Below, piece after piece: positions 37,973 through 41,800 of a stretch of DNA of 64,000 bases. The first letter of the stretch is position 1. The number at the start of each line of letters is the position of its first letter. The position numbers and the translations under genes are program-made. Under the pieces are notes generated by a model. The model was given only the letters and a program-made list of their open reading frames with translations. It ran no database searches and had not been told where the DNA came from. This DNA comes from Streptantibioticus silvisoli (lineage in GTDB: Bacteria > Actinomycetota > Actinomycetes > Streptomycetales > Streptomycetaceae), in the NCBI RefSeq assembly GCF_027947535.2, contig NZ_JAAGKO020000048.1, positions 1 to 64,000 of the forward strand, given 5' to 3'.

Positions 37973-38158
37973 CCGCCGGGCACGCCGTACGCGTCCGCCG
38001 CGGTGCCGCCGCCGGCGCCGGTGACGACGCCGCCGCGGGCACCGGTGCCCGCGAAGTCCTCACCTCCGGGGTATCGACGCCGTCGTCACCTCGTGGTTAG
38101 GGTGCGCGGACGCGCCCCCTGGCGGGGCGGGCGAGACGGGCGAGAAAGGGAGGACCCG

Positions 38159-39085
38159 GTGTCCGTGGCGGAGGGCATGCCGCAGGACGCGGCCGAGGAG
38201 GACGCGGTACGGCGACAGGCCGGCACCGCGCCCGGCGACGCGGCCGGCGGCCCCGCGGGCGGCACCGCCGCGGCGGACGAGGACGCGCTGTACGTGCTGA
38301 CCGCCACCCTGCTGACGCCCGGACGGTTCCCGAGCGTGCTCGGCGACGACTACCCGGCGGCCTGCGCGGCGCTGCGGCTCGTGCCGCGTGCCGACGGTTA
38401 CGGGCTGGTGCTCGGCCAGGACGGGCTCGGCGCCCGGTGGACGGTCGTCACGTCGGACACCGCGCTGGTGGCGGTGGCCGTGGCGACGTGGGACTGCGGC
38501 ATGGAGTACGACCTGTCCCCCGGCGAACGCACCATCGTCGCCTCGCTGCCCGGCTGGCCGCTGGAGCTGGCGGTGGCCGCTCCCGGGCTGCCGGCGCCGC
38601 ACGATCCGGCCGGCGCGGACGAGGGCCCCGCGCTCACCCCGCCGGACACGTCCGTGTGGGGCCCGGCCCAGCGCCGCCTGGGCGCCGACGAGATCGCGCT
38701 GCGCTGGCGGACCTGGCGGGCCGAGATCGACGACGCGCAGGACTTCACCGCCCGCCCCTCCACCGGCGCGGGCGCGGATGCGGGCGGGGCCGGGGGCGGC
38801 ATTGAGGGCCACCGTCATCCGGGGGTGCGGCGGGCGCTGGCGGAGGCACGCGGTTACGTCGGCAGTCCGCCGCCGCCGGGCCGGGTGCGGTCGTCGTTCG
38901 CCGAGGGCGACGCGCGCTCGCTGCGGGCCGACGGTCCGGGCTGGAGCATGGTGGCCCGCACCGACGACATCGCCTTCTTCCTGCTCGACGACGCGCCCGG
39001 CGAGGTCGTCCCGGTCGGCCGCGGCGCCGAACTCCCGCGCCTGCTGGCCGCGTTGGACCAGCTGGCGGTCCGCACCGACGCGTAG
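38159..39085 (+). CDS. Unrecognised cytoplasmic protein of 308 residues
   Basis: The GTG start lies five bases after AAAGGGAGGA. The N-terminal 45 residues are Ala/Gly-rich. The rest is mixed alpha/beta with ALYVLTATLLTPGRFPSVLG, WTVVTSDTALVAVAVATWDCG near the middle, an Ala/Gly linker, and a C-terminal part with GWSMVARTDDIAFFLLDD and LLAALDQLAVR. There is no signal, membrane helix or known catalytic motif. Codon bias is strong, so it is a real gene. I do not recognise the family. Confidence 0.7.
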   Translation: MSVAEGMPQDAAEEDAVRRQAGTAPGDAAGGPAGGTAAADEDALYVLTATLLTPGRFPSVLGDDYPAACAALRLVPRADGYGLVLGQDGLGARWTVVTSDTALVAVAVATWDCGMEYDLSPGERTIVASLPGWPLELAVAAPGLPAPHDPAGADEGPALTPPDTSVWGPAQRRLGADEIALRWRTWRAEIDDAQDFTARPSTGAGADAGGAGGGIEGHRHPGVRRALAEARGYVGSPPPPGRVRSSFAEGDARSLRADGPGWSMVARTDDIAFFLLDDAPGEVVPVGRGAELPRLLAALDQLAVRTDA

Positions 39086-40753: not shown

Positions 40754-40882
40754 GCGCTGCCTCTCGTCGTACCGGACCGGACTGCACGTGTACCCGGTTC
40801 GGGGCCCGGCGTACTCCCGGCCGGCCCAGGCGTCCGGGGGACGGCCCGGCACCCCCGGCGGTGAAGGCGGCGACCACCCCGC

Positions 40883-41163
40883 GATGACCCCGGCGGAGCC
40901 GACGGCGCCGACCGCCCCGGTGACGCACGGGCAAGCCCGTACACCGCCGACCGGTGAGCGCGTAGCGCCGGATCGCGCGGTACACGTCGCGATGACCCGG
41001 CAGCGCCGACCGCCCCGGTACCACGCGGACAGGCCCGCGCAGCTCCGACCCATGAGCGCGCAGCGCCCCATCACGCCGTACACGTCACGATCGCCCCGGC
41101 GGAGCCGACGGCCCCCAACAGACAGCGCGCCATCACGCGGTACACGTCACGATGACCTCGGCG
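40883..41163. repeat. Three to four imperfect long repeats ending in GGTACACGTCACGATGACC
   Basis: Units begin at GATGACCCCGGCGGAGCCGA (40883), GATGACCCGGCAGCGCCGA (40991), GATCGCCCCGGCGGAGCCGA (41089) and a partial copy at 41151. Each ends in CG(G/C)TACACGTC(A/G)C. Unit lengths are about 108, 98 and 62 bases. The array sits in a 600-base gap without genes, upstream of the RNase Sa-like gene. ACGTC cores again appear. Confidence 0.75.
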
Positions 41164-41362
41164 CCGCTCCCCGCCCGGCGCCGTGAAGCGTCGCCGGGGC
41201 CTGCTCACCGAGGGTGACGACGCGGCGTCAGATCGCCCGCAATTACGGCTGATTGACCGATCCGCACACTGCCACCACCGATCGGGGTGGCACGGTAAAC
41301 GTCACGTGAACCATGGCCGGGGGCACTTCTGTCCGCCGGGGACGCTGGTCAGACTGTCTGCC

Positions 41363-41800
41363 ATGCGAATGCCTCTACGCGCGTTGCGCTCCCGTGGTTC
41401 CGCCGTCATCCTCGCCGGAACGCTCGTCATCGGCCCCACCCTCCTGGCCGGTGCCGCCCACGCGGCGACCCCCACCACGCACGCGGCCACCGTCGTCACC
41501 GCCGCCGTCCCCCACGACATCGGTGACGTCTGCCAGACGGCCCTGCCCAGCCAGGCGGACGACACCCTGAACCTCATCGCCTCCGACGGCCCGTTCCCGT
41601 ACTCCGAGGACGGTGAGGTCTTCGACAACAACGAGGGCCTGCTGCCCGCCGAGTCCACCGGGTACTACCACTCCTACACCGTGGTGACCCCGGGCGCGAG
41701 CAACCGCGGCACCCGCCGCATCATCACCGCCGAGGACGGCACGGACTACTACACCTCCGACCACTACGACTCGTTCAGCACCATCGACACCTCCTGCTGA
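41363..41800 (+). CDS. Secreted RNase Sa-type guanyl ribonuclease homologue lacking the catalytic Glu
   Basis: A 145-residue precursor: signal peptide (cleavage near AHA, residue 34), a short linker and a mature domain closely like Streptomyces RNase Sa (ALPSQADDTLNLIASDGPF, NRGTRRIIT, DYYTSDHY). Cys57 and Cys145 match the conserved disulfide. Guanine-binding Glu91 and Asn89 (RNase Sa E41, N39), Arg115, Arg119 and catalytic His134 (R65, R69, H85) are kept. The general base Glu54 is replaced by Ser104 in YYHSYTV. Activity is therefore doubtful. No barstar-like gene is next to it. There is no obvious ribosome-binding site. Confidence 0.92.
   Translation: MRMPLRALRSRGSAVILAGTLVIGPTLLAGAAHAATPTTHAATVVTAAVPHDIGDVCQTALPSQADDTLNLIASDGPFPYSEDGEVFDNNEGLLPAESTGYYHSYTVVTPGASNRGTRRIITAEDGTDYYTSDHYDSFSTIDTSC

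Follow-up and report, generated by a model that had tools for sequence, protein, structure and literature searches.

Textbooks use RNase Sa, barnase and RNase T1, the last of the same fold class, as model enzymes and take the glutamate general base to be invariable; the replacement of Glu54 by Gln in RNase Sa reportedly lowers the activity about 1000-fold. RNase Sa, Sa2 and Sa3 are guanyl-specific enzymes of the Pfam family PF00545. Barnase keeps its general base at Glu73, has no disulfide and is partnered by the inhibitor barstar. PMC3149027 cites a report that His40 of RNase T1 takes over as the base once Glu58 is replaced by Ala, and that paper itself names His40 as the RNase T1 base. The RelE toxins have the microbial-RNase fold without the canonical Glu base (PMC2807027). 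They also lack the His, and they are cytoplasmic and ribosome-dependent.

Here we analysed a stretch of 64,000 nucleotides from Streptantibioticus silvisoli (the window), which encodes a protein that is, judged by its sequence, a secreted RNase Sa-type homologue by descent. The features of the gene are as follows.

41363..41800, + strand: coding sequence of the secreted RNase Sa homologue (PF00545), a 145-aa precursor, identified by open reading frame, RNase Sa alignment and Pfam
41363..41464, + strand: residues 1-34, a probable Sec signal peptide with its predicted end at AHA, assigned by eye from the sequence
41501..41797, + strand: RNase domain (99 aa) used for the alignments, ~60% identical to RNase Sa
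41615..41617, + strand: Glu85 (Sa position 35), candidate substitute general base, in the column of barnase Asp54 and RNase T1 His40
41627..41635, + strand: guanine-site Asn89-Asn90-Glu91 (Sa Asn39, Arg40 changed to Asn, Glu41)
41672..41674, + strand: Ser104, codon TCC, at the place of the catalytic Glu54 in the RNase Sa alignment
41705..41707, + strand: Arg115 (Sa Arg65), phosphate binding
41717..41719, + strand: Arg119 (Sa Arg69), phosphate binding
41762..41767, + strand: His134-Tyr135 (Sa His85, the general acid, and Tyr86)

The best match of the window protein in the PDB was RNase Sa (E ~1e-38). Residues 54-145 aligned to it unambiguously (E 6e-38) with one gap only, a single residue absent before the last His, and Pfam assigned the protein to PF00545 with an E value of 1.2e-21 (77 bits, cut-off 24). 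The first-pass annotation of this DNA had described such an alignment, with the deletion, the retained disulfide cysteines, guanine-binding Asn/Glu, both Arg and His85, and a Ser encoded by TCC in place of Glu54; our alignment (E 6e-38) bears out each of these points. The one-residue deletion is common to relatives and hence unremarkable. With residues given in RNase Sa numbering, the window protein shares ~50-60% identity and the same length with RNase Sa, Sa3 and Sa2, as well as Asn39, Glu41, Arg65, Arg69, His85 and Tyr86. Both Cys7 and Cys96 are retained, as in Sa and Sa3, and from these aligned, conserved residues a Cys7-Cys96 disulfide is predicted. By contrast, it differs from RNase Sa in Glu54 to Ser, Val35 to Glu, Arg40 to Asn and Gln38 to Asp, and it is one residue shorter before His85. 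Among the features of an active guanyl RNase, Glu54 is therefore the one missing, while His85, Arg65/Arg69 and Asn39/Glu41 are present. The precursor starts with MRMPL, and relatives align with it from residue 1; read by eye, the signal peptide has a positive N-terminus, a hydrophobic core and small residues at the cut site. Predicted secretion and the retained His and guanine site distinguish the protein from the RelE toxins; likewise, a signal peptide with an oxidoreductase and a NUDIX protein as neighbours does not fit the RelE/YoeB type. The best structural matches of an AlphaFold model were still RNase Sa structures, but the model itself was too poor (pLDDT 59) and the active-site geometry from it was set aside.

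To quantify how widespread the loss of Glu54 is, we utilized a sample of 395 Streptomycetaceae genomes, plus 80 further loci from named genomes. A homologue was detected in 311 of the 395 genomes, leaving 84 without a detectable one. We extracted 221 homologue rows, with some proteins entered twice because two collections contained them. Glu occupies position 54 in 210 of these rows; of the others, 8 have Ala and 3 have Ser. These 11 rows come from the window gene and the relatives closest to it and reduce to seven distinct proteins: the window protein (Ser), those of three species of genus group g14 (Ala), two of them named Streptantibioticus rubrisoli and S. ferralitis, and those of the genomes G005 and G029 (both Ala) and G007 (Ser). 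His85, Arg65 and Arg69 are invariant in all 221 rows. A codon-pattern search for Ala or Ser at the position-54 motif returned no further case from the 395 genomes, and a phylum-wide PF00545 sample added few homologues, each with Glu54. We regard the Glu54-less lineage as a variant within a known enzyme family. A literature search for a described RNase Sa lineage of this kind found none, which is weak evidence given that it covered open-licence papers only. Two other residues were ruled out as the new base: Ser54 itself, relatives having Ala there, and Asp38, where relatives have Gln or Tyr. In the distant family members L119 and L126 (G036), Gln or His falls in the column of the catalytic Glu, the alignment being uncertain there.

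The genomic neighbourhood of the gene was compared with that of seven relatives (G005, G007, G013, G016, G025, G027 and G034), synteny being judged within the fetched stretches. In the window, a gene for a pyridine nucleotide-disulfide oxidoreductase lies on one side of the RNase gene and one for a NUDIX protein on the other. The NUDIX protein and a gluconokinase-like kinase follow the RNase in all seven relatives, the gene at 38003-39085 precedes it in six of them, and the oxidoreductase is found in three. This common neighbourhood identifies their RNases as orthologues. As to the conservation of the Ser, which had been left to a comparison of orthologues, what is shared is the loss of Glu54, as Ala or Ser and across several genera, but the syntenic orthologues in G016 and G027 retain the Glu. 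A sequencing error or misalignment could in principle mimic such a loss. We found nothing in favour of it, and its probability is negligible: in independent genomes the codon for position 54, where the alignment has no gap, is TCC, GCC or GCG, and the recurrence of the loss in syntenic orthologues of other genera means that it is not an error of sequencing or assembly. The G029 copy (L024 / L145, Ala54) has unrelated neighbours, and its protein groups with that of G005; G029 belongs to group g3, whose other members examined have Glu54 forms, and this copy was probably acquired by horizontal transfer. As a separate observation, the G027 protein (Streptantibioticus parmotrematis, L006 / L034) keeps Glu54, but its guanine-binding Glu41 has been replaced by Gln, and its close relative from G016 (L008) has both glutamates.

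In the rpoB tree, eight genomes form one clade (100/100). In it, G016 and G027, which both have Glu54, are together sister to the window genome (98/97), and the other side of the clade is made up of the remaining Ala/Ser genomes (89/89). This topology implies that Glu54 was either lost twice, or lost once and regained once. The gene tree of the small RNase protein did not resolve these histories. Since TCC (Ser) is one step from GCC (Ala), the codons suggest that Ala probably preceded Ser at position 54.

Loss of a catalytic residue may be an early step in the loss of a relaxed, decaying gene. One key residue has indeed changed, and no homologue was detected in 84 of the 395 Streptomycetaceae genomes. 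Nevertheless, the change is common to several genera at a conserved locus with intact reading frames, and all seven Glu54-less proteins share Phe37, Asn39, Glu41, Arg65, Arg69, His85 and Tyr86 without exception; the chance of this is ~0.009 given that 52 of the 99 columns are invariant. Moreover, the numbers of amino-acid changes in the three g14 gene pairs were 2, 7 and 6 against neutral expectations of 12.9, 14.3 and 10.2, respectively. Of 2000 neutral simulations, none was as low as two of the pairs, and 20 were as low as the third. The gene is therefore under purifying selection in the three g14 relatives, after the loss of Glu54, and the RNase gene is free of decay; we consider a decaying gene very improbable. 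The NG86 dN/dS values between genera (0.4-1.2) are uninterpretable under high-GC codon usage.

The feature that goes together with the missing Glu54 is a glutamate at Sa position 35. Glu35 is present in all seven distinct Glu54-less proteins and in all nine members of the clade. In the 210 rows with Glu54, position 35 usually holds Thr, Val, Ser or Ala, and it is acidic in 13 (11 Glu, 2 Asp). Outside the clade, Glu35 occurs only in a Kitasatospora group and in one Actinoallomurus homologue, which adjoins the clade in the gene tree, and Asp occurs in two distant homologues. G016 and G027, which kept Glu54, carry Glu35 too. Its presence in these two and in the Actinoallomurus homologue is as expected if Glu35 came first.

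The position of Glu35 can also be compared with the distant enzymes. Barnase and binase are distant homologues of the window protein (E 1e-4), and in the sequence alignment the Sa-35 column is that of barnase Asp54. Equivalents of barnase Glu60, Arg83/Arg87 and His102 are all present in the window protein; unlike it, barnase keeps the base Glu73, lacks the disulfide and has the partner barstar, which is absent from the window genome. RNase T1 in register places His40 with Glu35 and Glu58 with Ser104, although His40 in this Y42/N44/E46 register lies one column beyond the hhalign block, whose probability is low (9.5). RNase T1 itself keeps Glu58, and its E58A mutant, according to the report cited above, uses His40; in the window protein the replacement would be natural, and by a Glu.

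Because Glu35 is found in every Glu54-less member, and at the barnase Asp54/T1 His40 column, we prefer a relocated general base. Glu35 would have arisen first and made Glu54 dispensable, whereupon Ala or Ser took its place; such small residues would leave space for another side chain. The side chain of Glu35 would then reach the 2'-OH and abstract its proton, and RNA cleavage after G would persist, with His85 as the general acid and Arg65/Arg69 gripping the phosphate. We favour this enzyme with a relocated base, still cleaving RNA, over an inactive decoy, at roughly even confidence based on the residue pattern. The fuller history, a natural base migration in which Glu35 came first, Glu54 was lost, perhaps twice, and the guanyl RNases stayed active with the moved base, is held slightly less firmly, just short of an even chance. 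Several points count against relocation. The pairing of Glu35 with Glu54 loss belongs to one clade and amounts to one or two events, so that it does not count as independent evidence of function, and Glu35 is also found beside an intact Glu54 in the Kitasatospora group. The reported ~1000-fold drop in activity of RNase Sa Glu54Gln and the low hhalign probability to RNase T1 weigh against relocation as well. By analogy, the RelE relatives suggest that the fold can outlast the Glu/His pair in an altered role.

The same residues could support a weak RNase without any substitute base, where His85 and the Arg pair alone drive the attack of the 2'-OH and a low activity is enough or even useful, for example by reducing self-harm where no barstar is made. 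The invariance of Arg65, Arg69, His85 and Tyr86 is consistent with this, as is RelE, which cleaves without the canonical pair by means of basic residues (PMC2807027). A search for the barstar family (PF01337) in the window genome (98% complete) gave no match, which also agrees with it. However, the constant Glu35 is left unexplained, and G016 has no barstar and keeps Glu54, so a missing inhibitor is no predictor of the loss. We consider a weak RNase of this kind doubtful. Absence of barstar as the cause of Glu54 loss was rejected, both on account of G016 and because other Glu54-less genomes have barstar.

The first-pass annotation had left two options for the protein, an inactive decoy and an enzyme that uses a different base. 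If catalysis is lost, it would be a pseudoenzyme that is secreted and binds guanine nucleotides or RNA through its intact guanine and phosphate sites. The main base is gone while these sites are fully retained, and the protein is kept by selection. Furthermore, five other Glu54-less genomes (G005, G007, G013, G025 and G034; L114-L118) have, immediately next to a barstar gene, another RNase of the family that lacks the cysteines, keeps Glu54 and could supply the activity; the pair looks like a separate toxin-inhibitor system. But the window genome and G029 lack a second Sa-type RNase, and no partner gene adjoins the RNase in the window. In addition, the acid catalyst His85 is invariant too, Glu35 is constant, and Glu54 stands, kept or regained, in one of the lineages that have the gene at this locus. 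A pseudoenzyme is thus possible but rather unlikely, and as to mechanism we lean towards the relocated base, the evidence pointing to the second option of the annotation through the constant Glu35. Its specific form as a barstar decoy is disfavoured because the window genome has no barstar and its RNase is its single PF00545 member.

If relocation is true, this is a natural lineage for studying how a catalytic residue relocates, in which orthologues with both glutamates still exist and the candidate base sits at a site whose T1 counterpart reportedly rescues the E58A mutant. If the proteins are instead inactive, they would constitute a conserved family of bacterial pseudo-RNases.

Degenerate direct repeats, with units of ~54-98 nt that are 65-80% alike, occupy window positions 40855-41176, in the interval from the oxidoreductase gene to the RNase gene. 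Their core, TACACGTCACGAT, occurs in 3 copies with at most one mismatch, which is commoner than by chance, and the repeats may be regulatory or a duplication remnant.
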